This document shows positions 3,857 to 21,474 of a stretch of 21,474 nt of DNA, piece after piece (within the stretch, counting starts at the first letter, position 1; every line of letters starts with the position of its first letter). The position numbers and the translations under genes are program-made. The stretch comes from a virus. The stretch lies in the IMG/VR virus record IMGVR_UViG_3300030110_002513, positions 1-21,474 of that record, one strand, 5' to 3'. Below the pieces are notes generated by a model. It was not told the origin of the DNA. It saw only the letters and a list, made by a program, of their open reading frames with translations, and made no database searches.

Positions 3857-4078
3857 CTACTTACGAAATAAACCCACCAACACCAATAAGGCGACAAGCC
3901 CAGCGAAACCCGACTCGCCGAACTTATTAATGATGGATGTGAGGTTACCAATAACATTGACACCGAAAATACCAGTTCCGAATATTACTTCAGAAACTGC
4001 ACCTACGGCAACAAAGGAAACCAATAAATGAACAATGTCATCTATATATCCCTTTACCATTGTTATTACTTCCTTCAT
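3857..4078 (-). CDS. Small two-helix membrane protein, unknown function
   Basis: A 73-aa minus-strand gene, the only one in the window against the prevailing direction. The product has two hydrophobic helices: about residues 17-43 (LLVSFVAVGAVSEVIFGTGIFGV, rich in Gly and Ala) and about 58-71 (FAGLVALLVLVGLF). They are joined by NLTSIINKFGESG, with a short basic end (RK). Start at 4078 is supported by GGGAG seven bases upstream on that strand; a second in-frame ATG seven codons in is less well placed. By hand count its GC is 88/222 (about 40%), well above the two neighbouring stretches sampled (25%). It has its own leader and is closed by the 3788-3818 terminator. A small membrane virion protein, holin-like protein or host-membrane effector are all possible; none can be chosen from sequence. 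Confidence 0.8.
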   Translation of the reverse strand: MKEVITMVKGYIDDIVHLLVSFVAVGAVSEVIFGTGIFGVNVIGNLTSIINKFGESGFAGLVALLVLVGLFRK

Positions 4079-8529: not shown

Positions 8530-9633
8530 ATGCATTATTTTACATTTGCAGAAAAAGATTCAACTTTATATCAAGCTAGTGGTAGTTTAAACGCTGGATT
8601 AGATGAGATATTAGAAATAAGAAAAGAAGTTAGTGATACTGGAGAAACGGTGAATGTTTCTCGTGTAGTAATGAGATTTAATTTAAATTACATTTCATCA
8701 TCTATAGTACGAAACACAATAACCAATCCATCATTTTTTTTAAATTTATATGATGCTAAATCAACAGAATTAGCAACCTCTCAAAGTATATATGCTTATC
8801 CTCTCAACGGAGCTTGGATAGCAGGACAAGGTAGGTCATATGATAATCCAATAACTGATGAAGGATGTAGTTGGTATTACAAAGACGGAGATACAGATGG
8901 TACTCTTTGGCATAGTGAAATTAGTTCTTCAGGTGGACAATGGCATAGTGGAAGTGGTTATGAAGCTTCACATTCATTAAATCATAGAACTACAGATGTA
9001 AGAATTGATGTTACTGATATTGTTAACAAATGGTTAGATAATTCAATATCAAATGATGGGTTTATAATTAAAAGAAGTGGTAGTATTGGTAATCTAAATA
9101 CTGGTAGTGATGAAGGTAACACAACTAGATTTGGTAACTTAGCATTCTTTTCATCAGATACACACACAAAGTATCCACCCACATTAGAAACAGTTTGGAA
9201 TGATTCTAAATGGTCAACTGGTTCTTTATCACCTATAACAGGCTCAGCTTTAGAAGACTCTGTTATTTACATGAAAGGATTAAGACCTGAATATAAAGAA
9301 AGTTCCAAAGTAAGATTTAGATTAGTTTGTAGAGAAAGATTTCCTGCAAGAACATATTCAACAACACCTTCAAATCTAACTGTAAAAACATTACCAAGTG
9401 CTTCTTCGTTTTATTCTATTAGAGATGCAGAAACACATGATGTGATTGTTCCTTACGGTAGTGGTTCATTAATAAGTTGTGACAGTAATGGTAACTATTT
9501 TAATCTTTGGTTAGATGGATATCAACCTGAAAGATACTATACCTTAGAATATAGAGTTCAAAGTGGTAGTGGAACTGTTGATGAATTAGATCAATATTTT
9601 GATGAGGGATTTACATTCAAGGTAACACAATAA
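8530..9633 (+). CDS. DNRLRE-like beta-sandwich protein, probable baseplate/fibre component
   Basis: A 367-aa protein whose first 180 residues resemble the DNRLRE/CBM96-type extracellular beta-sandwich. There is an opening strand (FAEKDSTLYQASGSLNAG) with a following 'LeI.k' strand. SRVVMRFNLNYIS (42-54) is like the family's 'sR.LLrFdls'. VRIDVTDIVNKWLDNSISNDGFIIKRSG (about 157-184) corresponds to 'iDVT..V..Wl.g...N.Gf.l'. A Gly/Ser/Trp-rich stretch (WHSEISSSGGQWHSGSG) lies between. The C-terminal half is beta-rich with a distinct RFRLVCRERFPARTY segment and may anchor the protein. In bacteria such domains occur in cell-surface and polysaccharide-related proteins; here it could bind glycans on the host surface. 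It sits between gp6- and gp7-like genes, where T4 has no counterpart. Starts four bases after the gp6-like stop. Confidence 0.7.
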   Translation: MHYFTFAEKDSTLYQASGSLNAGLDEILEIRKEVSDTGETVNVSRVVMRFNLNYISSSIVRNTITNPSFFLNLYDAKSTELATSQSIYAYPLNGAWIAGQGRSYDNPITDEGCSWYYKDGDTDGTLWHSEISSSGGQWHSGSGYEASHSLNHRTTDVRIDVTDIVNKWLDNSISNDGFIIKRSGSIGNLNTGSDEGNTTRFGNLAFFSSDTHTKYPPTLETVWNDSKWSTGSLSPITGSALEDSVIYMKGLRPEYKESSKVRFRLVCRERFPARTYSTTPSNLTVKTLPSASSFYSIRDAETHDVIVPYGSGSLISCDSNGNYFNLWLDGYQPERYYTLEYRVQSGSGTVDELDQYFDEGFTFKVTQ

Positions 9634-10226
9634 TGCCATACACAAAAGACGAGTTGCAAAATGTATCTATTTATACTGAGTTTAGAGATAGACTACGAGG
9701 TGAATACATTGAAAATTTAATACAAGCAGCATTAAAAAAATTTAGAAATGAAGATGGAGTTTTATTATCATACGAAGACATTGTTAGTAGAGAAGGTATA
9801 GAAAATGCACAATTAAGTGAACCTGAATACTCAACACTTGAAGGTCAACTTAATAGGGCAACCATAGAAGAAACAACAGGATATACTAACTTTCAAAATT
9901 TAATTGAAGAAGAATCATACTCTATCCAAACAGATGTTATAAAAGCAACTAACAAAGACAGAATGTCAGATAAACTTGTAGATAGAAATATTTCAGAACT
10001 TTTACAAATTGATATAATAGATCCTTTACCAGATGGTTTGGAAAATGGTGATACTATAACATCAGATGATGTAACTGATGTTAGGAAATGGTTAATAGAT
10101 GGAAATCAAAAAAGACCATTTCCTGATTTACAGACTTTTTATGCAATAGGTTCTGAATGGAGAAATGTAAAAACTAAAACTATGGAAATAATAGACAGTA
10201 TACCAGAAGGGGAGCCTGTAGACTAA
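9633..10226 (+). CDS. Acidic protein of unknown function in the baseplate operon
   Basis: A 197-aa acidic protein, not recognised. It is helix-rich at the N-terminus (TEFRDRLRGEYIENLIQAALKK). A Glu/Asn-rich middle follows, then a C-terminal half with DVRKWLIDGNQKRPFPDLQTFYAIGSEW. That segment carries Trp, Phe and Tyr and may be the ordered binding part. No signal peptide or membrane segment. TAATG overlaps at both ends lock it into the operon. A small wedge accessory protein is the likeliest role by context; no T4 equivalent could be matched. Confidence 0.75.
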   Translation: MPYTKDELQNVSIYTEFRDRLRGEYIENLIQAALKKFRNEDGVLLSYEDIVSREGIENAQLSEPEYSTLEGQLNRATIEETTGYTNFQNLIEEESYSIQTDVIKATNKDRMSDKLVDRNISELLQIDIIDPLPDGLENGDTITSDDVTDVRKWLIDGNQKRPFPDLQTFYAIGSEWRNVKTKTMEIIDSIPEGEPVD

Positions 10227-11644
10227 TGTCAAGTAAAATAAACAAAACAGATAAAGAATTATTAATTACTAATACCCCATTTAATTATTCTTCAATAGAA
10301 AATACATATTTTGGTGGATATTTTGGTAATGATTCAGAAGATTATGTTGAAGTATTAATTTATGATACTAACGATAATCTATTGGAGACTTCTGTGGCAG
10401 ATTCTAATGATTACTATTACGATTCTGAAAAAGGTGGTATTAAATTAAAAACTGGTACTATTCTTAGAAAGTTAGGATATGACAGAGGAAAATTTAAAGT
10501 TACATATAACTTTTTAAGAAAATCAGCTGGTTCGTATGAAACTGTTGTAACAGATATAAATGATGAAATTTTTAATGGAGAAGTTGATGTTAATGAAATA
10601 GACAATACATTATTTATAAAAGAAAATAAATATATAGTTCATCAAATATCACCATCTAGAACAGAATTAAGATTAGTTATACAAAATATAAGAGATGAAA
10701 AGTATGTTAGAGATTTTTATAATTTAGCTAGACGAAAGAAAAAAGTTACTGCAGATACTTCAGAATATAGTAAAATAAGATTTGTTGGTTTACCCGCAGA
10801 CCAACCAAGTTCAACACAGATTGAATTTGTGCCTCCTGCAGGATTTGCAGATGTAGGTCATTTTGACCAATCAATGACAGGTGGAACTATATCTATACCA
10901 AATTTTTTTTTAGTAGATAAAATTTTTCCACCACCAGTACTTTCAGCAGAGGATGTAGGTCTTACGGAGTTTGAAGTAATTTCAACTGAAACAGATATAT
11001 ATCAAGCAAGTTTCTTTTTAGATACAAATGCAGGTGGGCCTTTTGAACTTAAAAAAAATAACTCAGGTAAATTTGGTGATACAAAATTTGCTCCTGCTTA
11101 CACTAGATTCAAAGACCTTATACTTGGACAAGAATCACAGACTTTTCAACAATGGGATGATGGTGTTGATTTTGAAGGTGATGGTAGAACCTTAGATGAT
11201 GTTAGAAATTTATCGGATAGTACATTTAATTGTGTTTATTTAAAATGGAAAGATCCTAATCCTGTAATAGATATAGTTAGTAATTCTTTTTTAAGAGCTG
11301 ATGTAGAAACGGAATACATATGGGAAATAACAGGATTTGATAAAGATGGAAATGATTTTAATGCAATACAACCTAGGCCAATAGGTCAAGATGAAGGTGG
11401 TGACTTTCAAATTGTATCCGTGCCAGGTGATGCTAGTTATGCAAATCCTGATTCGCAAAGTATGTTTAGAGCAATACATACCGTAGGTGGTGGTTCAGGT
11501 GATGGTAACACTAGAAGTGGTTCTAGACTTAGATTAACATTTTTTAGTAAAAATTGTCACATAGGAATAAAATTAACAATTAATGATAATGTTGCAAATG
11601 ATTCATCAACACTTCATTTACCAACAATAATTGAGACACACTAA
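10226..11644 (+). CDS. Beta-rich virion protein of unknown function
   Basis: A 472-aa protein, not recognised. The N-terminal 170 residues alternate beta strands and turns (YFGGYFGNDSEDYVEVLIYD, KVTYNFLRKSAGSYETVV). They end in a polar segment (VIQNIRDEKYVRDFYNLARRKKK). The middle contains Pro/Gly-rich loops (SIPNFFLVDKIFPPPVLS). The last 110 residues look like a separate beta domain (EYIWEITGFDKDGNDF, RLRLTFFSKNCHIGIKL). Two regions, ELRLVIQNIRDEKYVRDF and FPPPV, look like conserved anchors. Coupled by TAATG to both neighbours and placed just before the gp7-like gene, so a wedge-periphery protein (the place of T4 gp8-gp10) is plausible but unproven. Confidence 0.72.
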   Translation: MSSKINKTDKELLITNTPFNYSSIENTYFGGYFGNDSEDYVEVLIYDTNDNLLETSVADSNDYYYDSEKGGIKLKTGTILRKLGYDRGKFKVTYNFLRKSAGSYETVVTDINDEIFNGEVDVNEIDNTLFIKENKYIVHQISPSRTELRLVIQNIRDEKYVRDFYNLARRKKKVTADTSEYSKIRFVGLPADQPSSTQIEFVPPAGFADVGHFDQSMTGGTISIPNFFLVDKIFPPPVLSAEDVGLTEFEVISTETDIYQASFFLDTNAGGPFELKKNNSGKFGDTKFAPAYTRFKDLILGQESQTFQQWDDGVDFEGDGRTLDDVRNLSDSTFNCVYLKWKDPNPVIDIVSNSFLRADVETEYIWEITGFDKDGNDFNAIQPRPIGQDEGGDFQIVSVPGDASYANPDSQSMFRAIHTVGGGSGDGNTRSGSRLRLTFFSKNCHIGIKLTINDNVANDSSTLHLPTIIETH

Positions 11645-14600
11645 TGGCTAGAAAACCATACATAGAATTACCAGATATACTAAAACTTTTACCACCGATG
11701 GAGGCTGTTGAAACAGATCCTCAAGTTGGAGGACCTGGTGGTCTATTAAATCAGATAAAAGATTTAAATTTACACGATTATATTTTAATTGATGGTTGGT
11801 ATGATGATGGGAGTTTTATACCATCTAAGCTTGTTTTATATACTGAACCATTCGAAATAGAATTAGATATAACTGATATAACTTTTAATGAACAAGATGA
11901 ATTAAGATGGGAAATACTTAAAGATGGTCAAGTAATTCATTCAGAGGGTGGTAGTCCTAGTAAATCTTTTACGCTGTCAAATTATGTTCAAAACGATGTT
12001 AATCCCTTTAGTACTAATCAAGTTCAACAATTTGAAATAAGAGTGGTTATAGACCATTATAGAGAAGTAGAAACACCTGGAGGTATCGACTATGTGTTGT
12101 TATCAACTAATGCTCAACCAGAAATTGCATTTACTGCAGTTCCAGCACCTGCAGAAGTCGATGCTGATGGAAATATAGCATCAGAAATATTCACGCCAGT
12201 TTATCAACCTTTTGTTGCTAAGATTTTATCTGTAGACGAAAATAAAATTACCATAGATTCAAGTTACAATACTATCGTAGACAGAATACAACCAATAATT
12301 GAAGGTTCTAAAGAACCAATTGAACAATTTGGAAATTGGATAATAAATAGTAAGTATGGAGATAGAAAAGATTTAAATACATATTTACATTTTGGTGATG
12401 ATAAAAGATTTTTGGTAACAAATGTAAAGTATGATACTGATTCAGTGCCAATCTTACCGTATTCAATAGTATATAAAACATATGAACCTTTACCAGATGA
12501 TATATCAGAAAAAGAACAAGTGTATGTTGTAAAAGAAATTTTACCACCATTTACTGAAACTGTTGAATTGTTTCCGTATGAGCAAGAAGACGAAGATGTT
12601 TTGGTATTAATACCACAAGAAAATTTACCAGAAAATTCTCCTATTTCAAATAGACCAACTGAATTACAAAGTTTTGATGATTTAACTACATCTGATGCAA
12701 GGTTAAAACAAGAAATAATTGATAAGTATGTAAGTGGTAGTCAAAAACCTGTAGAGTTGAGTGTAGATTATTCTCAATATAAAAACTTTATAAACTTTTC
12801 ATCTGCAGAAAAAAGATTAGAAAATTTTAAATATAAAATAGAAAAAATAGAACAAAACACAGCGTTAAGTGCATCGTTTGCAGCAACTACTAATGGAGCT
12901 GCTGATGCTGTTATTTACGAGGATGTAATAAGAGACGTTAAAAGTAATTTTGATGGATATGAAAATTATTTATATAACACAAAATCAACTTATGTTTCAA
13001 GTTCAATGGGTGAATTTCACGACTCATCTTGGCCAAAAGGTGGTAGTGGAACATATGCAGATCCATATAAACCATTAAGTTCTTCACACGCAGATTTTAC
13101 TACTTGGTATGGTTCAAATGCATCTAAGACTGGTCAGATATATAGTGCATCTTTATATGACATAGAAAATCCAAACAGATTAGTTAACTTATTACCACAA
13201 CATATTACAAGTGATGTTAATAATAGCCAATTTTCAGATTTTATGGATATGATAGGTCAACAGTTTGATGAACTTTGGTCTTACATAAAAGCTTTATCAG
13301 ATATTTCTGACAGAAGATTAGATTTAAGTGATGGGTTTTCAAAAGATTTAATTTTTAATTTAATTCAATCTTTAGGTTGGACATTTGAGGATGGTAAAGA
13401 TTTATTAGAATTAAGTAGACATGGTTTTGGTCAAAAATTAAGTGGTGATTCATACTCACTATATACGTCTGGTTCTCTTGATTCTCCACCTGAAGGTGAC
13501 GTTTCAAAAGAGATAACTAAAAGACTCATTGCAAGTATGCCATTTTTATTAAAATCAAAAGGTACAATTGCTTCATTACGTGGTTTGTTAAATTGTTATG
13601 GAATACCAGGAACTATTTTAAAAGTTAGAGAATACGGTGGATTGAGTAAACCAAGTCAAAGAGAACCATTTGAAATATCAAGGAGATTTACTAAAGCATT
13701 AGGTTTTAGAGGTAGTCAATATGTTTCAAGTAGTTGGGCTGATGATAGTGATACTAATATGAAACCTCAAACAGTAGAATTAAGATTTAGGTCAGTTAAT
13801 AGTTCAGACCAAGTTCTAGTTCAAAAAGGAACTGATTGGGCTATAAAATTAAAAGACAATGATTCTACTGATAATTATGGAACTGTTGCATTTGTATTAT
13901 CAGGCTCAGATGGATATAAAACAGTAAGTTCTTCATTGTTACCTATATTTGATGGTGATTATTATTCTTTAATGTTAAATAAAGAAAAAGTTAATGTTGA
14001 ATTATTTCCATTTCCATCTTTTGAAACAAATAAATTATTTAATCCACCATTCATCACAGGTTCAGATGGTCAACCTTCCAGTGCAGCGTATGGAAATATA
14101 AAAATAGTTAGTAGTTCTAATGTTGCTAAGATAGGAACAAATAGTTTAAGACATGAAAATAGTTCTGAAAGAGATAACAATCAAACATCGTATACATATT
14201 TATTTAAAGTTGCAGAACCATCTGGTTCTCTTGGTTCACAAAAAGCATCTTTAACTAATATAAGTCAAAATGAAACTTATACATTTTCTGCATTTGCTAA
14301 AGCATCTGGTAGTAGTGTAGATTCTGTTGGTCGTTTACGTCTGTTTGAATTAGATGAAAATGAAAATGTTGTTAATTGGTCTGAAGATACAAACTCTAAT
14401 AATGAATCTATTACTGCATTGGGTGGTATGAAAACTTCACTACCAATTGGATTAGATGAATCAGAGTGGAGACAAATATCAGTAACAAAAACAATAAGAT
14501 TTCCAAATACTGCAAAACTAGGTGTTCGATTTGAAAACCTAAAAGCAAACTCAATTATATTTTGGGATGATGTTTCTTTAAGAGAAGTTGTAGATAATAC

Positions 14601-16185
14601 TGATAACATTGGTGATTCGTTTAGTTATAATTTATTTGTTAAAAAATATGAAAGTGGATTAGATAGAACTATATTTTCTAGTAAAACATCTTTAATTATT
14701 ACAGGATCTAATAATACAGTATCGTCTTCTTATAATGCAGCTTGGACTGGAAGTGATAATTTATTTATTGGTGGTACAGGAACAACTTTTGGAAGTCAGT
14801 TAACAGGTTCGTTAATGGAATTTAGATTGTGGAATGAAATATTAAAAGAACAATATTTTGATAATCATGTAAGTAATCCAAAATCGTATATTGGTAACAC
14901 TCCATCATCTTCATATTACTCACTAGTTACTAGATATTCTTTTGATGATAATACTAGTTTATCCGATGGTACAACTATTAGAGATGTTAGTTCTAATCAG
15001 ACTACAACTTCTCCTGGTTCTGCTAATGGATTTGGTGGAGTAAATACATTTGAATCTGTAGTTGATGACACAAAAACTTTTGTACCTAATCATGGGCCTA
15101 ATAGAAGAAATTCAGATAAAATTAGAATAGAAAATAATTTTATAAGTGGTAGTGGTGCAAATTTAAGTGTAAGTGAAAGGTTCGACCATAGTTCTAATGA
15201 TTTTGCACCAATAGACTCACGTAAGGTTGGTATATATTTTTCACCAACAGATGTAGTAAACGAGGATATAGTATCATCATTTGCTAATTTAGATTTCAAT
15301 CAATATCTTGGTGATCCTAGAGATAATTTTGAACATCAATATTCTGAGTTAAAAAATATATCAAATCAATATTTTCAAAAGTATTCTGATAATAATGATT
15401 TTTGGGATTATATGCATTTAATAAAATACTATGACCAATCAGTATTTAAACAAATTAAAAAATTAATACCAATGAGGTCAAAAACACATTTAGGAACTGT
15501 AGTTGAACCTAACATTTTTGAAAGACCAAAGATTCCAATACAGAGAAATAATCCATCTTTTGATAGAGTAGATTATAGTTCAAAAATTAATTTAACAAAT
15601 TTTCATTTTAATGAAAGTACTAATGAGGCTAGTCATTCTGTATTAAAAATAGAAAGTGATTATCCTTATTATGAAGGTGAGATAGATGCTTCAGATACTT
15701 TCTTAAAACCAGCATTATATAAGTTTGCAGCTAATGACAATTTTGATGATAGAAATTTATATATAAGTGGTTCAGCAAAATATGGATATCCAGATTTTGT
15801 ATATCAAGAACCAACTGGAGCAATGGCTGTGAATCAACGAACTTCATTACGTAATTTAGAATATAAATTCTTTTACGCAAATGCTGCTGATTACGATAAG
15901 AGTTCTAGATATAGTACTAATCCATTTGAAAACTTTTATAGTTCTAGGTCATTACATTCAACAGATTTAGATACTGAATATCAACATAGTACAGCTCAAA
16001 GAAGAATGTTTTTTGAGGGTGTGAAAAACACATCAGAAACCACCATAGACGGTGACTTGCCATTTATCGTAACAACAACTGCACCAACTGTTGCAGTACC
16101 AACTACAAAGGGTATATCTAAACTTTCAGTAGACCAAAAAGGTGGTAAAAAGAAAATAAAACCTAAGAAAAGACCTAAGAGATAA
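11644..16185 (+). CDS. Giant gp7/gpI-like baseplate wedge protein with nested LamG and CBM-like domains
   Basis: A 1513-aa protein and the largest gene here. Residues 1-500: beta-rich modules. Residues about 525-670: a P2 gpI / T4 gp7-like section (SDFMDMIGQQFDELW, GWTFEDGKDLLELS, RLIASMPFLLKSKGTIASL, RGLLNCYGIPGTILKVREYG), with the family-typical 'KGT..slr.ll..yGi'. About 672-1085: a LamG/concanavalin-like fold (QTVELRFRS, FDGDYYSLMLN, DNLFIGGTG, LTGSLMEFRLWNEIL). It appears split by a CBM4/9-like jelly roll at about 790-980 (from SFETNKLFN to IIFWDDVSLREV). About 1245-1310: FWDYMHLIKYYDQSVFKQIKKL and an RSKTHLGTVVEPNIFERPK segment that looks like a conserved tail anchor. The C-terminus is very basic (KGGKKKIKPKKRPKR). 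T4 gp7 is 1032 aa; the excess is the sugar-binding-like insert. Likely a wedge protein that also contacts host glycans. Confidence 0.7.
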   Translation: MARKPYIELPDILKLLPPMEAVETDPQVGGPGGLLNQIKDLNLHDYILIDGWYDDGSFIPSKLVLYTEPFEIELDITDITFNEQDELRWEILKDGQVIHSEGGSPSKSFTLSNYVQNDVNPFSTNQVQQFEIRVVIDHYREVETPGGIDYVLLSTNAQPEIAFTAVPAPAEVDADGNIASEIFTPVYQPFVAKILSVDENKITIDSSYNTIVDRIQPIIEGSKEPIEQFGNWIINSKYGDRKDLNTYLHFGDDKRFLVTNVKYDTDSVPILPYSIVYKTYEPLPDDISEKEQVYVVKEILPPFTETVELFPYEQEDEDVLVLIPQENLPENSPISNRPTELQSFDDLTTSDARLKQEIIDKYVSGSQKPVELSVDYSQYKNFINFSSAEKRLENFKYKIEKIEQNTALSASFAATTNGAADAVIYEDVIRDVKSNFDGYENYLYNTKSTYVSSSMGEFHDSSWPKGGSGTYADPYKPLSSSHADFTTWYGSNASKTGQIYSASLYDIENPNRLVNLLPQHITSDVNNSQFSDFMDMIGQQFDELWSYIKALSDISDRRLDLSDGFSKDLIFNLIQSLGWTFEDGKDLLELSRHGFGQKLSGDSYSLYTSGSLDSPPEGDVSKEITKRLIASMPFLLKSKGTIASLRGLLNCYGIPGTILKVREYGGLSKPSQREPFEISRRFTKALGFRGSQYVSSSWADDSDTNMKPQTVELRFRSVNSSDQVLVQKGTDWAIKLKDNDSTDNYGTVAFVLSGSDGYKTVSSSLLPIFDGDYYSLMLNKEKVNVELFPFPSFETNKLFNPPFITGSDGQPSSAAYGNIKIVSSSNVAKIGTNSLRHENSSERDNNQTSYTYLFKVAEPSGSLGSQKASLTNISQNETYTFSAFAKASGSSVDSVGRLRLFELDENENVVNWSEDTNSNNESITALGGMKTSLPIGLDESEWRQISVTKTIRFPNTAKLGVRFENLKANSIIFWDDVSLREVVDNTDNIGDSFSYNLFVKKYESGLDRTIFSSKTSLIITGSNNTVSSSYNAAWTGSDNLFIGGTGTTFGSQLTGSLMEFRLWNEILKEQYFDNHVSNPKSYIGNTPSSSYYSLVTRYSFDDNTSLSDGTTIRDVSSNQTTTSPGSANGFGGVNTFESVVDDTKTFVPNHGPNRRNSDKIRIENNFISGSGANLSVSERFDHSSNDFAPIDSRKVGIYFSPTDVVNEDIVSSFANLDFNQYLGDPRDNFEHQYSELKNISNQYFQKYSDNNDFWDYMHLIKYYDQSVFKQIKKLIPMRSKTHLGTVVEPNIFERPKIPIQRNNPSFDRVDYSSKINLTNFHFNESTNEASHSVLKIESDYPYYEGEIDASDTFLKPALYKFAANDNFDDRNLYISGSAKYGYPDFVYQEPTGAMAVNQRTSLRNLEYKFFYANAADYDKSSRYSTNPFENFYSSRSLHSTDLDTEYQHSTAQRRMFFEGVKNTSETTIDGDLPFIVTTTAPTVAVPTTKGISKLSVDQKGGKKKIKPKKRPKR

Positions 16186-16264
16186 AAAATGTTAAAAAAA
16201 ATTAATCATCGATATTTATTTATAGAAAAGTTATATCAACACAAAATTCATTGGAGACAATAAT
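16186..16264 (+). promoter_or_regulatory. AT-rich intergenic gap with a possible late-promoter element
   Basis: This 79-base gap is one of the few in the late region. It holds CGATATTTATTTATAG (16210-16225), similar to CGATATATTTATTA in the gap before 4232 (from 4192), and TATTTATA also occurs in the gap before 19090. A GGAG SD follows (TTGGAGACAATAATATG). A secondary late promoter here would let the downstream virion genes be expressed apart from the baseplate operon. The motif also occurs inside genes, so support is weak. Confidence 0.3.
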
Positions 16265-16918
16265 ATGGGATTTTTAGACAACTCAAGTATCACCGTTGAC
16301 GCAATTTTGACCAAAAGAGGTCGTGAAATATTAGCTTCAGGTGGTAATTTAAATATTACAAAATTTGCATTAAGTGACGAGGAAGTAGATTACACACTAT
16401 GGGATGTAACACATCCTAATGGGACTGATTCATATGGAACAGTAATTGAGAATATGTCACTATTAGAAGCTACACCAAACAGAACTGGTTTTCGTAGTCA
16501 TTTAATAAATCAAAGTTTAGCTGGTTCACAATTAAATGTAGACCAAACAAACTATTCAGATGTAGATACAAATACAACCATATCTATTAAACCAACTACC
16601 GAAGGTGGAATTTCAGAACAATATACATTTACTATTGAAAATACCAATATTGTTTCATTTCAAGGTACTGTACAATCAACTAAAACTTTAACAGCTTCAT
16701 CAGTAGATTTAAGAACAATGTCTATAAATCCATCAGCAACAACAAATGTCACTATAACTGGTGTTCAATCAGCTTTAAGTAAAGTAGTCACTATTACTGT
16801 CAAAGCAGATCCTGCATCAAATACAGATCCAAAAGGGCCAAAAAATGTAAACTTTCAAAATCCTCTTGAAGGAGCTCCGGGAGCTTTTGGACCTGGTGGA
16901 AGTCAGAGTAATTACTAA
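16265..16918 (+). CDS. Probable virion protein (tail/baseplate-associated)
   Basis: A 217-aa protein with a conserved-looking N-terminal block: FLDNSSITVDAILTKRGREI followed by ITKFALSDEEVDYTLWDVTHPNG (to about residue 53). I associate this type of block (a mixed alpha/beta start, 'vdaiLTkrGre.la', then 'fal.dd.vdY.l') with structural proteins of marine myophages, from general knowledge rather than a search. The second half (about 95-185) is a Ser/Thr-rich Ig-like beta region (ISIKPTTEGGISEQYTFTIEN, TNVTITGVQSALSKVVTITV). The end is a Pro/Gly-rich tail (GAPGAFGPGG). Strong SD (GGAG, 12 bases before ATG). It precedes two paralogous virion proteins, and together they probably form the outer baseplate or fibre attachment. 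Confidence 0.72.
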   Translation: MGFLDNSSITVDAILTKRGREILASGGNLNITKFALSDEEVDYTLWDVTHPNGTDSYGTVIENMSLLEATPNRTGFRSHLINQSLAGSQLNVDQTNYSDVDTNTTISIKPTTEGGISEQYTFTIENTNIVSFQGTVQSTKTLTASSVDLRTMSINPSATTNVTITGVQSALSKVVTITVKADPASNTDPKGPKNVNFQNPLEGAPGAFGPGGSQSNY

Positions 16919-16935: not shown

Positions 16936-17961
16936 ATGTTTAAAAATTTTACAGCAGAAGATGTAAGTATAGATACTGGAATTGTCACGTCTGGTGTTTG
17001 GCAAGATGGAGATGGAAATATAACCACTTTTTTTAGTTCATCTACACAATATACAAATAACGGTGATTATAATATAGATGTATACAGATATGATCCTGCA
17101 GCAAATGCATCAGCATCAGTTCAGTTTGGAATAGTATATGGTCACAGAGATGGTAGTGGTTCTTTAGGAACTAAAGGTGCTACTGGTGATAGAACTGCAG
17201 CTGCATCATTTGGACAATTTAATAGTTTAATCAATCCTGCTCAAACCACAGATTTTACTTTTCAAGCAAATACAACATCTAAACAGTTTTATGCAATAGT
17301 TCTTAATAGAGCTAGAATGAGAGAAGAAATAGAACCAGGTGGTTGGGAATTACATTTAGGAAATGGTGCTGATAAAAAAATAAAATTAATTGATGATTCA
17401 TCTACTAACGAAGGTGGTAATACATTTGCTAGAAATTTTTCACCAGAATACAATATTGTTAGTGGTTCACTAATTGGTGGTACTAGTATAGATACTGCAG
17501 CTGGTTCTGAAACTGCAGCTCTCGGTGGTTCATATGGAACTTTTTATCCAAGTTTAGGTGTGATAATTTTAAATCCAGAAAGATTAAGTTCAGCACCACT
17601 TGGTTTAGTAACTAAGAGTGGTTCAAATAGTGATGATAGAAATAATAGATTATTATTTAATTCTATTGTGAGTGGTTCTTATTTTCAGATGAAACGACAA
17701 GAACAAATAACATCACAACATTATTTTGTAAGAGCTACATCAGGTGATTTCAATTCAACTTCAAATGAAACTTTTTATACACAGTCAGTTGTTGGAAATA
17801 AAGTCGTAATTCCAGGTCTGGCTTCTGAACCTAAAACATTTATTACATCTGTAGGTTTGTATAATAATTCAAATGAGTTAATTGCAATAGCTAAATTAAG
17901 TAAACCAATATTAAAGTCAAAATCAAGAGAAGCACTTATTAAAGTAAAACTTGATTTTTAA
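16936..17961 (+). CDS. Probable virion protein, paralogue of the next gene (copy 1)
   Basis: A 341-aa beta-rich protein. It starts FKNFTAEDVSIDTGIVTSGVW and contains Gly/Ser/Thr-rich strands, a middle with GVIILNPERLSSAPLG, then QITSQHYFVRATSGDFNSTSN. It ends in a module (TFITSVGLYNNSNELIAIAK, then LSKPI) that recurs in the following gene as TYVTAIGLYDDDNQLVAVGK plus TAKPI. The shared C-terminal module suggests a common docking or trimerisation role, as is usual for baseplate-fibre proteins of T4-like phages. No signal peptide or enzyme motif. SD AGGAG with a normal gap to ATG 16936; an out-of-frame ATG at 16928 runs straight into a stop and is not used. Confidence 0.75.
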   Translation: MFKNFTAEDVSIDTGIVTSGVWQDGDGNITTFFSSSTQYTNNGDYNIDVYRYDPAANASASVQFGIVYGHRDGSGSLGTKGATGDRTAAASFGQFNSLINPAQTTDFTFQANTTSKQFYAIVLNRARMREEIEPGGWELHLGNGADKKIKLIDDSSTNEGGNTFARNFSPEYNIVSGSLIGGTSIDTAAGSETAALGGSYGTFYPSLGVIILNPERLSSAPLGLVTKSGSNSDDRNNRLLFNSIVSGSYFQMKRQEQITSQHYFVRATSGDFNSTSNETFYTQSVVGNKVVIPGLASEPKTFITSVGLYNNSNELIAIAKLSKPILKSKSREALIKVKLDF

Positions 17962-17972
17962 GGGGTTCTAAA

Positions 17973-19058
17973 ATGCAATTCAAGAATCTCGAATCCGATG
18001 ATATCTTAATCTCACCTTTTGAAGTTCACAAAACTTTTACTGTGACAAATTTGGATAGTGGAAGTGGAGTATATGCACTACCGATAACAAAAGGTAATGA
18101 TGCAACACAATATGATTGGACTACGGATTCTGCATCTAAAACTATTTCATCAAGTATATTTTATAATTTACCAAATTACTATACAATCAATACTATGTAT
18201 TATAGAGATATAAATAGTATGGCTGGTAAAATAGATTGGATTAACGGAACACCAAAAGGTGTAAATGCAGTTGTAACATATACAAAAACTAGACATTTAT
18301 ATGATACACCGTATAAAAAGTCTGAGATGAAGTTGAGAAGACCATATACAAGACAATTACATGAAAGTGCTAGTGTAATATCAATTCCACAAAGATTGTA
18401 TGGTGAATCTATTGCATTAGATTCAGTTAGATTAACAGATGATAGTTCTGATTCTACAATAATATTACAAGATGATGGATATGGAAATCTATATGACATA
18501 GCTTTTAGTTCTAGTTATGCTTCTAAAGAACCTGATTCAAATGGTAGTGGTAGTGTTGTTGGTAATGTTTTTTATGATGATGGTTTGATAGTTATTACTG
18601 ATACTGGTTCTTATTCAGGTGTAGGACTTGGTGAAGCTAGTGATGGATTTAGTTTAACTTTTGATTCAACACAAACTATATATGAAAATGAATATGTTTG
18701 TAGAATTGGAGAAAATGAATTTCAACATACTAATAACAGAAGTTTAAAAGTTGGGTATAGTGGAAGTGTTTCGTTTAACGGAAATGATTATAATGATAAT
18801 ATTTATAGAAATACAATTTATGACGACTATCCATATAATTTAACTGGATATGCTACAGGTTCATATAAAAACGAAGAATATAGAATTGGTACTGAATTAA
18901 TTGGTGCAGCTACACATTCTGATTTTGGAACTTATGTAACAGCAATTGGATTATATGATGATGATAATCAATTAGTTGCTGTAGGTAAAACAGCAAAACC
19001 AATTAAAAATGACAAAGATTTAGCATTAACATTTGTGGTCAGATTTGACACAAACTAA
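17973..19058 (+). CDS. Probable virion protein, paralogue of the previous gene (copy 2)
   Basis: A 361-aa beta-rich protein with the same plan as its upstream neighbour. It opens MQFKNLESDDILIS (compare FKNFTAEDVSID). A middle strand region GNVFYDDGLIVITDTGSY corresponds to the neighbour's GVIILNP area. IYENEYVCRIGENEFQHTNN matches the neighbour's SQHYFVRATSGDFNSTSN. The C-terminal TYVTAIGLYDDDNQLVAVGK module is shared. The N-terminal 200 residues have diverged, with Tyr-rich segments (NLPNYYTINTMYYRDINS) that may contact the host or another tail protein. SD AAGGGG. Tandem duplication followed by divergence is the simplest reading. Confidence 0.75.
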   Translation: MQFKNLESDDILISPFEVHKTFTVTNLDSGSGVYALPITKGNDATQYDWTTDSASKTISSSIFYNLPNYYTINTMYYRDINSMAGKIDWINGTPKGVNAVVTYTKTRHLYDTPYKKSEMKLRRPYTRQLHESASVISIPQRLYGESIALDSVRLTDDSSDSTIILQDDGYGNLYDIAFSSSYASKEPDSNGSGSVVGNVFYDDGLIVITDTGSYSGVGLGEASDGFSLTFDSTQTIYENEYVCRIGENEFQHTNNRSLKVGYSGSVSFNGNDYNDNIYRNTIYDDYPYNLTGYATGSYKNEEYRIGTELIGAATHSDFGTYVTAIGLYDDDNQLVAVGKTAKPIKNDKDLALTFVVRFDTN

Positions 19059-19374: not shown

Positions 19375-19393
19375 TAAAAATAGGAGAAAACAG

Positions 19394-20674
19394 ATGTTAA
19401 AGAAAATTATAATAGGTTTATTAATAACCTCATCTTTGTTTGCTGAAAATGAAATATGGAAATTCTTTAAGTATTCCACAGCTTATGCGAGTTTTAGTTT
19501 AAATGCCCCAAGACACCAAGACGATAGGTTTGCTATTGTCGGTGGTTTGTCTACTGGACAATTAGAGTTCAAGAGGGAAAAACGTGAACTAGAACCTGAT
19601 TTTCAAAAGTCATTAGGTATTAGAAAAATAGGTCGTTTTAAGTACGAACCAAAACGTGGTGTTAAAAATGCTGGTAATGGTGGAACTTGGTACGATGGTT
19701 CTGAACAATCAGCAAATGAAAACGCAACATTCGGTCCTGTAAAGGGTTGGGAGTTTTTAGCTAAATGGTCTGAAGGTAGACAATGGGGTGATGATTACCT
19801 TAATCAAGAATACTGGTTACGATATGTAGGTGAGTGGTTTATGATTAAAGGTGGTTATACCGAACTTGGATTAGAAGATGTTCAGTATGTTCATGGTGAT
19901 TTACGAATAAAGAAATCAATCGGTGGACTAAACATAAGTGCTGGTGTTAAACACAGACAACATCCTGTATATGGATTCGATGCTGCTATATTAGATACAA
20001 CTTGGTATAGAGGACAATGGTGGAACTTTGCTGAAGATGCTTTTGGTATTGATGACAATATGTGGTTTGACCCGACAATGCAAGATGAAGATGGTAATTG
20101 GATTAAACAACAACTATATGAATACGATCCTGTAACTGGAGAACTTAGAGAAATTGAAGGTGCGGGCCCTTTATGGAACGAAGGTGGAGAATATTGGGGA
20201 CATGATTGGTTATGGAGAGATGAGGATGGTAGAATATTTGCTTACACAGATAGAGAGTATTTTCTATATCATTTTCCAGGTATGTTAGAAGAGTATATTG
20301 ATGAAGTCAAGACAGACCTTGGATTTCAACGAGAAACGTCTTTAGTCTTAGGTGGAGATTTTTATCATTATGGTGACAATTGGTGGTTACACGCTTGGGG
20401 TAATTGGATGCCGTATCACTACGGACATGATACATATTCTTATCATAATGCTGATTCTTACAAACAACATAAAGATGATAAAAGATTACCACATTTATTT
20501 GAATTTGCAGAACCTAGTTGGAAAGCTTGGAATGATTATGATATCGGTGCTATCTTTGGTGTAAAGATTAAAGATAACTTAGGTGTATTTTCTGAAGGTA
20601 GATATCTTTACTATTGGGATAAACCAGCATATGATTTAAAGTTTGGTGTTAATTATCAATTTGTGGGGTGGTAA
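19394..20674 (+). CDS. Secreted outer-membrane beta-barrel-like protein encoded by the phage
   Basis: A 426-aa protein with a clean Sec signal peptide (MLKKIIIGLLITSSLFA, predicted cut after A17). It is extraordinarily rich in aromatic residues: 24 Trp by hand count, plus many Tyr and Phe, and Gly-aromatic alternation typical of transmembrane beta strands (EYWLRYVGEWFMIKGGYTEL, WLHAWGNWMPY). The C-terminus KFGVNYQF (416-423), followed by VGW, fits the outer-membrane beta-signal pattern (polar-x-Gly-x-x-hydrophobic-x-aromatic) read by the BAM complex. A long acidic loop lies around 225-300. It is likely inserted in the host outer membrane rather than in the virion. Possible jobs include blocking receptors against rival phages or altering permeability; nothing in the sequence decides. 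SD AGGAG. The next gene starts at the base after its stop. Confidence 0.78.
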   Translation: MLKKIIIGLLITSSLFAENEIWKFFKYSTAYASFSLNAPRHQDDRFAIVGGLSTGQLEFKREKRELEPDFQKSLGIRKIGRFKYEPKRGVKNAGNGGTWYDGSEQSANENATFGPVKGWEFLAKWSEGRQWGDDYLNQEYWLRYVGEWFMIKGGYTELGLEDVQYVHGDLRIKKSIGGLNISAGVKHRQHPVYGFDAAILDTTWYRGQWWNFAEDAFGIDDNMWFDPTMQDEDGNWIKQQLYEYDPVTGELREIEGAGPLWNEGGEYWGHDWLWRDEDGRIFAYTDREYFLYHFPGMLEEYIDEVKTDLGFQRETSLVLGGDFYHYGDNWWLHAWGNWMPYHYGHDTYSYHNADSYKQHKDDKRLPHLFEFAEPSWKAWNDYDIGAIFGVKIKDNLGVFSEGRYLYYWDKPAYDLKFGVNYQFVGW

Positions 20675-20887
20675 ATGCCAGGTATAGAATATATAGTAGT
20701 GTTCGTAATAGCTTTTTCAAGTGGATATGAAACAGGTAAACACAAAAATTGTGGACACCAACATATCATTGTAAAGCATAAACCTTGGTATACATTAAAT
20801 ATTGAAACTTGTTTACATAAACATAAATGTAAACATAAACGTAAATGGAAAAAACAAAAACGTAAACACTTACGTTGGAGATGGTAA
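20675..20887 (+). CDS. Small membrane-anchored Lys/His/Cys-rich protein
   Basis: A 70-aa protein. Residues 4-17 (IEYIVVFVIAFSSG) form a short hydrophobic segment. The rest is very basic and dense in possible metal ligands: H23, C26, H28, H30, H35, C46, H48, H50, C52, H54, H65. It ends in Trp/Arg (LRWRW). Residues 48-59 are a run of X-Lys pairs. Positive-inside rules would place the basic tail in the cytoplasm, where it could touch nucleic acid, membrane lipids or metal ions. ATG directly follows the previous TAA with SD GGGGTGG, and its own TAA is directly followed by the lipoprotein ATG. No family recognised. Confidence 0.7.
   Translation: MPGIEYIVVFVIAFSSGYETGKHKNCGHQHIIVKHKPWYTLNIETCLHKHKCKHKRKWKKQKRKHLRWRW
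20816..20851 (+). repeat. Hexanucleotide tandem repeat within the 70-aa gene
   Basis: Six in-frame 6-base units: cat-aaa, cat-aaa, tgt-aaa, cat-aaa, cgt-aaa, tgg-aaa. They encode His-Lys, His-Lys, Cys-Lys, His-Lys, Arg-Lys, Trp-Lys. The aaa half is fixed while the other codon varies. A cgt-aaa unit recurs a few codons later. Confidence 0.8.
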
Positions 20888-21433
20888 ATGAAAAGATTAT
20901 TATTATTAGTTGGACTCTTATTTTGGAGTTGTGAAGACGAAAGAGTTGAGATTCCTGTTGTAGAAGATATTGGTATGTGGGTTAATGGTGATATTATACC
21001 TGTATACGATTACTATGAGAGTATAACTACTTTTGGTAGAAAGATTACACAAGAAGATGGTTCAGTAAAGAAAATATTTGTTATTCACTTTCAAAAAGAT
21101 TTAGGTCGTATAACACCTGAAAAAGAACATTATGCTTTAATATTCTATGACAATGATGCGGATAACGATAATGACTTAATTGATTTGGGTGTTTATGTAA
21201 ATCCAGATACAGCTTCTTCAAAAGGAATTACTTTAGAAATTGTAGGTGTATCTGATTATACAACAAACGCACAAGGTATCATAAACGAACTTCATAAAAA
21301 TGTTGTTAGTGGATATGCTGAAGGAACTTTTTGGAATCCATACAGAGAAGAATTTCAAAACGGATTAGTGGTATTTGAAAATTTACCAATAAGTACTGAT
21401 ACTACTAATACATTTTATAGTGAATTTTATTAG
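20888..21433 (+). CDS. Phage-encoded lipoprotein, unknown function
   Basis: A 181-aa protein with a short lipoprotein signal peptide: Lys-Arg, a Leu-rich core, then FWSC with the lipidated Cys at residue 15. Acidic residues follow directly (EDE). The FWSC box is looser than the classical L-A/S-G/A-C and is the style seen in Bacteroidota/FCB lipoproteins, where acidic residues after Cys favour surface export. The mature part is beta-prone (KIFVIHFQKDLG, HYALIFYDND) with an acidic Asp-rich loop (DNDADNDNDL) that might bind calcium, and ends in aromatic residues (FYSEFY). Together with the barrel-like and Lys/His-rich proteins it forms an envelope module. It lacks the Pro-rich or coiled-coil look of an outer spanin. 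SD GGAG, ATG directly after the previous TAA. Confidence 0.76.
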   Translation: MKRLLLLVGLLFWSCEDERVEIPVVEDIGMWVNGDIIPVYDYYESITTFGRKITQEDGSVKKIFVIHFQKDLGRITPEKEHYALIFYDNDADNDNDLIDLGVYVNPDTASSKGITLEIVGVSDYTTNAQGIINELHKNVVSGYAEGTFWNPYREEFQNGLVVFENLPISTDTTNTFYSEFY

Positions 21434-21442
21434 GGGAATAAA

Positions 21443-21474
21443 ATGAATGGTGACATTAAAATAGGTAAGTTACT
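21443..21474 (+). CDS. Start of a further gene (partial, cut by window end)
   Basis: An ATG at 21443 has SD AGGGG eight bases upstream. It opens ten codons (MNGDIKIGKL) before the window ends, nine bases after the lipoprotein stop. It continues the same + strand transcript. Too short to identify. Confidence 0.6.
   Translation, partial: MNGDIKIGKL

Follow-up and report, generated by a model that had tools for sequence, protein, structure and literature searches.

Why would a phage carry a tryptophan-rich outer-membrane protein gene beside its tail genes, and what would the product do to the infected cell? The question is raised by a gene near the end of a 21,474-nt viral contig, IMG/VR record IMGVR_UViG_3300030110_002513, which was analysed over its whole length and is referred to here as "the window". 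T4-type baseplate proteins are encoded in the window, and the genes for proteins 162, 164, 165, and 166 of Flavobacterium phage immuto are homologues of its tail genes; the contig represents part of a T4-like phage. Almost no phages of SAR406 or marine Bacteroidota have been cultivated, and the gene and its neighbors offer a handle on how such phages alter the host envelope.

The gene and its export signals

The gene and its sequence signals are as follows:

19382..19386, plus strand: ribosome-binding site AGGAG, read directly
19394..20674, plus strand: outer-membrane beta-barrel protein gene, 426 aa, from the ORF, homologues, and predicted fold
19394..19444, plus strand: putative Sec signal peptide, residues 1–17 (MLKKIIIGLLITSSLFA), from the sequence pattern, conserved in relatives
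20639..20662, plus strand: beta-signal KFGVNYQF, residues 416–423, followed by VGW and the stop codon, read directly and by pattern count

The ORF begins with an ATG seven bases 3' of AGGAG and ends with TAA. Direct counting agrees with the coordinates, the 426 residues, and the 24 Trp originally reported. Trp thus makes up 5.6% of the protein, as against 0–3.3% in the remaining large ORFs of the window; there is no Cys, and acidic residues (66 D+E) outnumber basic ones (46 K+R). The dN/dS of 0.03 relative to a 99%-identical locus (L002), together with at least 579 relatives (see below), indicates that the ORF is a real gene.

Two features suggest export to the outer membrane. First, the N-terminus has the n/h/c layout of a Sec signal peptide, with a cleavage pattern that places MLKKIIIGLLITSSLFA before EN; direct reading shows the same layout in relatives, which favors the signal peptide that had been proposed. 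Second, the C-terminus carries the predicted BAM recognition sequence KFGVNYQF. The sequence is present as claimed, but the fit is not "exact", because the signal ends three residues short of the C-terminus. When scored as polar-x-G-x-x-aromatic-x-hydrophobic within the last 14 residues, the signal was found in 112 of 119 family members, versus 12 of the 1529 remaining ORFs of these loci, and in 2.6% of shuffled versions of the protein. In shorter relatives, the protein does stop close to the signal (e.g., ...FKLGVNYIIF).

Predicted structure

An AF2 model of the mature protein made with 60 sequences has 12 long strands (pLDDT 71.5, pTM 0.64). An earlier model from 26 close sequences was too poor (pLDDT 42), and its quality was mended by adding divergent members. 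The regions of the model are as follows:

19475..19963, plus strand: barrel strands 1–7, residues 28–190, from the AF2 model and family alignment
19634..19744, plus strand: connection between strands 2 and 3, residues 81–117, predicted to be periplasmic, with low AF2 confidence here
19964..20326, plus strand: large Trp-rich insert between strands 7 and 8, residues 191–311, predicted to be extracellular, from AF2 and the alignment
20327..20659, plus strand: barrel strands 8–12, residues 312–422, from the AF2 model

In precursor numbering, strands 1–7 span residues 28–37, 69–80, 118–130, 133–145, 149–157, 164–176, and 179–190, and strands 8–12 span residues 312–326, 330–344, 376–393, 396–407, and 410–422. 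They are 9–18 residues long and even in number, as in a transmembrane beta-meander; a soluble globular fold was not predicted. The long Trp-rich loop region of the original prediction is recovered as an insert of 121 residues, of which 44 alignment columns are invariant among close relatives. By the odd/even rule, with the N-terminus in the periplasm, this insert would be extracellular. In the connection between strands 2 and 3, 17 of 37 columns are invariant among close relatives. The end of strand 2 carries a motif that is invariant across the family, RKIxRFxYE. Invariance within the family is highest in the stretch RKIxRFxYE...YxGxE, which would lie at the periplasmic end of this strand in the model.

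In a Foldseek search of the PDB, the best 50 matches were all outer-membrane barrels, including OprB, FapF, NanC, OmpG, and autotransporter domains. The query TM-scores are low (0.21–0.33), and so the barrel cannot be assigned to any single matched fold. Given the signals at its two ends and the predicted fold, the product of 19394..20674 is very probably a phage-made outer-membrane barrel.

Conservation is higher on the polar face of the strands (3.15 bits) than on the hydrophobic face (2.42 bits). Ten charged residues are invariant (R77, K78, R81, E85, E120, R129, K152, R171, R188, and E401), several of them on the polar face. These residues, together with a weak resemblance in fold to NanC, OprB, and a chitoporin, would suit a specific pore through which the infected cell takes up or releases a solute, i.e., an auxiliary metabolic role. 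We consider such a role improbable: there is no porin family match, the low TM-scores single out no transporter, and obligate inner-membrane and exported partners of the kind described below are atypical of porins.

A family found in phages

The barrel belongs to a previously unnamed family of a known kind of protein. An alignment query confirmed at least 579 relatives in IMG/VR, covering types I and II. Type I comprises close relatives, with 64–99% identity, found at 43 IMG/VR loci (123 relatives with the alignment query). Type II has 45–50% identity and ~16 loci. Type III proteins are shorter (~340–400 aa) with ~30% identity, and 75 loci were retrieved with a pattern built on the invariant motif.

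No family member tested had a convincing match in Pfam, PHROGs, NCBIfam, PDB sequences, or INPHARED (queried with four family members), and the family was without a match in 50,697 phage records. At E ≤ 1, Pfam gave no family for the barrel protein and no porin among 32 family members, in line with the original view that the protein is not a porin. Neither the Ail/Lom family, whose barrels have 8 strands rather than the 12 predicted here, nor the type IX secretion-associated PorP/SprF barrels gave a Pfam match, though very distant kinship with the latter could escape the profile. PADLOC gave no match, and we found no description of the barrel family, or of the three-gene module discussed below, in open-licence papers.

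The homologue search proposed for phages and candidate hosts thus had two outcomes: hundreds of phage contigs carry relatives, but none was found in 245 Marinimicrobia genomes by an HMM search in which a pilin profile, the positive control, did match. Likewise, no relative was found in 395 genomes from the phylum of G026 with a wider family profile, or in GTDB genomes with a two-peptide scan; these host-genome searches used a loose first look that very distant homologues could escape. Among viral structures, the best fold match, BFVD A0A516LKJ4 (342 aa, shorter than the query; E 1e-21, 22% identity), is probably a family member. Many of the top BFVD matches are annotated as phage-made outer-membrane proteins, which speaks against the earlier statement that such proteins are uncommon.

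Some phages encode more than one such protein. In one contig, a type I gene and a type II gene lie in tandem (L030:8001-9302 and 9304-10557), G005 has a partial second copy at the other end of its contig, and the type III phage G667 encodes a further small, exported, barrel-like protein (G667:C1:54393-54806, minus strand).

Two partners rather than the tail genes

The genes around the barrel are as follows:

16936..19058, plus strand: K1, two paralogous tail proteins upstream of the barrel, homologues of Flavobacterium phage immuto_165 and immuto_166
20675..20887, plus strand: small Lys/His-rich ORF, 70 aa, in the closest relatives only
20888..21433, plus strand: putative outer-membrane lipoprotein, 181 aa, with lipobox LFWSC, 3' of the barrel in most close relatives
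21443..21474, plus strand: start of K3 (MNGDIKIGKLL...), the inner-membrane partner, cut by the contig end 32 bases in
L002:10050-10649: whole K3 in a sibling phage, followed by K2 at L002:10656-11033

The conserved neighborhood is a cassette of the barrel, K3, and K2, and not the tail genes. K3 is an inner-membrane protein with a coiled coil, judged by eye from its sequence. It has a single hydrophobic segment in 73 of 91 cases, with ~65 residues C-terminal to it, as in a type II topology. The K3 proteins of types I and II are extended by an N-terminal domain, and that of L003 matches PilF/PilB (E 4e-8). K2 has a thioredoxin fold, is exported, and lacks CxxC; this motif occurs in only three of 95 members of the K2 cluster, two of which are thioredoxins lacking a signal peptide, while in the third it lies inside the signal peptide. 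Among loci with at least five ORFs downstream of the barrel, both partners are present in all of type I (24/24) and type II (9/9), and of 49 such type III loci, 46 have K2 and 43 have K3. A reciprocal search starting from K3 alone found the barrel in all 43 full 12-kb loci. In some type III loci (L252, L246, L285, and L273), K3 and K2 come before the barrel gene (K3-K2-barrel) and not after it, indicating that the three genes stay together despite rearrangement. The barrel, K3, and K2 therefore probably form a three-gene module. No barrel and no K3 were detectable in the immuto and RM378 genomes.

The linkage to a tail operon that was originally noted holds for the present contig and most close relatives, but not across the family: the barrel has no adjoining tail genes in L021, L023, L024, L028, and G667, and in the last of these, a type III phage, the cassette is distant from the tail genes. 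Rates of divergence agree. With L003 as the reference, the median identities are 73% (barrel), 65% (K3), 70% (K2), and 61% (lipoprotein), versus 25–46% for four tail proteins, suggesting that the barrel evolves with its partners and not with the tail. These observations bear on whether the protein is a tail component of the virion. Its gene lies directly 3' of tail genes on this contig, but the signal peptide, the outer-membrane barrel fold, the divergence unlike that of tail proteins, and the loci away from tail genes make this very improbable; in its signal peptide and divergence pattern the protein gives no sign of being a virion component.

The barrel is also under purifying selection. Its dN/dS is mostly ~0.1 (0.02–0.29 in the closest pairs), and in most pairs the large Trp-rich insert is as constrained as the rest. 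Such constraint on the loops counts against a rapidly changing receptor mask.

Possible functions of the module

Because the barrel is almost always encoded beside K3 and K2, we suggest that the products assemble into a structure that spans the envelope of the host as it is being killed. The barrel would be exported by Sec, inserted by BAM into the outer membrane of the infected host rather than packed into the virion, and serve as the outer-membrane part of an envelope-spanning module. K3 would be its single-pass inner-membrane part with a periplasmic coiled coil, and K2 its exported, CxxC-less thioredoxin-fold part. In the window's relatives, K3 also has the domain found at the N-terminus of type IV pilus ATPases (PilB/PilF). 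The remodelled envelope would keep other phages from attaching or entering, perhaps through interference with a conserved envelope machine such as a pilus or secretion system, and not by masking one variable receptor. The PilF/PilB match of K3, the tandem pseudopilins of many sibling phages, and the exported proteins with a type IX sorting domain that type III phages often encode near the barrel all favor such a target. The physical complex, its location, its timing, and exclusion itself are what we infer. Superinfection exclusion or envelope remodelling, the class first proposed, is retained as the likeliest, albeit tentatively and at somewhat less than even odds; the idea of a protein acting alone is given up, since the barrel travels with K3 and K2. 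Several considerations count against exclusion. A pore in the outer membrane could by itself account for the conserved charges. Exclusion proteins matched to a receptor are expected to track the tail fibre, and the barrel does not. Linked genes need not encode a physical complex, and in G667 the cassette is remote from the tail genes.

Known phage proteins provide partial parallels. Lom of phage lambda is a small 8-strand OmpX-like barrel of the Ail/Lom family, and Cor is a small lipoprotein. Like the barrel, such conversion proteins are phage-encoded, exported to the outer membrane, and located beside tail-fibre genes; unlike it, they have no K3- or K2-like partners, and the barrel protein has no Pfam match. 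The lambdoid phage-borne porins, e.g., Lc of PA-2, are trimeric 16-strand general porins; they too are phage-made outer-membrane barrels, whereas the present barrel is predicted to have 12 strands and has no porin match. T4 Spackle (PMC7677548) and T5 superinfection exclusion (PMC9586334) involve phage envelope proteins of the proposed functional class, but these are a small periplasmic protein or a lipoprotein, without a barrel.

The strongest competing explanation is lysis, in which the barrel would take the place of an o-spanin lipoprotein and, with K3 and K2, disrupt the outer membrane late in infection. The topology of K3 is i-spanin-like, and like spanins (Rz/Rz1; T4 PseT.3/PseT.2) the module pairs an inner-membrane coiled coil with an outer-membrane partner, sometimes near holin or endolysin genes: 30 of 75 type III loci have a lysis gene in the same stretch (holin phrog_3427, M15 endolysin phrog_894, or endolysin phrog_33083). 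Some type III barrels have a lipobox (12 of 119 members). Spanins were reported to be missing from 91 of 677 phages, including the FCB-group phages Rm378, B124-14, and P2559S, and the authors of that survey remarked that "an OMP could act as an o-spanin" (PMC6139136). Against this, the outer-membrane part here is a barrel and usually not a lipoprotein, known spanins have no thioredoxin-fold partner, and spanins diverge fast while the cassette is highly conserved. In type I loci, the separate lipoprotein could itself serve as o-spanin; no such lipoprotein was found near most type III barrels. A 126-kb sibling, G006, has an i-spanin-like pair ~56 kb from the cassette and, as read by eye, six genes from an endolysin-like gene. 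On balance, we regard a lysis role as unlikely, though less so than the solute pore.

A further alternative is that the barrel and its partners export or anchor a phage surface protein: K6 in type III, and the lipoprotein or pseudopilins in type I. K6, which is exported and bears a sorting domain for type IX secretion, occurs in 43 of 75 type III loci (Por_Secre_tail above the Pfam cut-off) and directly precedes the barrel in 18; pseudopilins and the PilB-type domain of K3 occur in type I. K6 and pseudopilins are, however, missing at many loci where the full cassette is present, and there is no PorP/SprF-type Pfam match; we think it improbable that surface display is the role.

Whichever function applies, a phage-only barrel with two obligate partners occurs in hundreds of contigs and in none of the phage records searched. 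It bears on how FCB-group phages open the outer membrane where no spanin is found, and on the means by which lytic phages shut out competitors where the host has pili or type IX secretion.

Hosts and other genes

In six sibling phages (L010, L013, L022, L023 at 13343-16489, L024, and L029), three or four tandem type IV/type II pseudopilins lie directly downstream of the cassette. Phage-borne pseudopilins look unusual. Their genome matches (38–72% identity; 78–82% for single proteins) are mostly labelled Ca. Marinimicrobia, and the matched loci resemble a chromosomal pilus/secretion operon. These matches make Ca. Marinimicrobia (SAR406) a likely host of type I phages and, by extension, the presumed host of the present contig. 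Proteins with type IX sorting domains point to Bacteroidota as hosts of type III. In SAR406 phages, the module might dock on host pilus or secretion machinery through the PilB-type domain, serving either exclusion or a barrel-based lysis of the outer membrane; that it is such a novel three-part device of FCB-group phages is a conjecture we hold at a little below even chances. The major capsid protein on the contig of a sibling, L036, has as its nearest named phages Microcystis phage Mel-JY01 (54%), immuto (51%), and RM378 (39%).

Several other genes deserve mention. Three type III loci encode large exported proteins with GCTDPxAFNYNPxAN repeats (L319:6422-9844, L262:9383-11524, and L274:3706-5844, all plus strand), and those of L319 and L262 exceed the Pfam threshold for Por_Secre_tail. 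A Popeye-type domain (POPDC1-3) and a cyclic-nucleotide-binding domain share one protein at L002:11565-12218 and at L003:11198-11863; in L003 both pass the Pfam cut-off. Within the window, TATAAATA was considered as a late promoter, a reading that is unsupported, with nine of its 10 copies on the opposite strand; repeats in the window are probably coincidental. Upstream genes of the window include a dehydrogenase-like gene (37-885), a gene for a PLP-enzyme-like protein (872-1702; phrog_7093 "threonine dehydratase", E 1e-27), and an HD phosphohydrolase-like gene (1980-2753). A membrane-like ORF of 73 aa (3857-4078) lies on the minus strand amid plus-strand genes; it may be real, because G667 has a look-alike ORF at 54138-54365.
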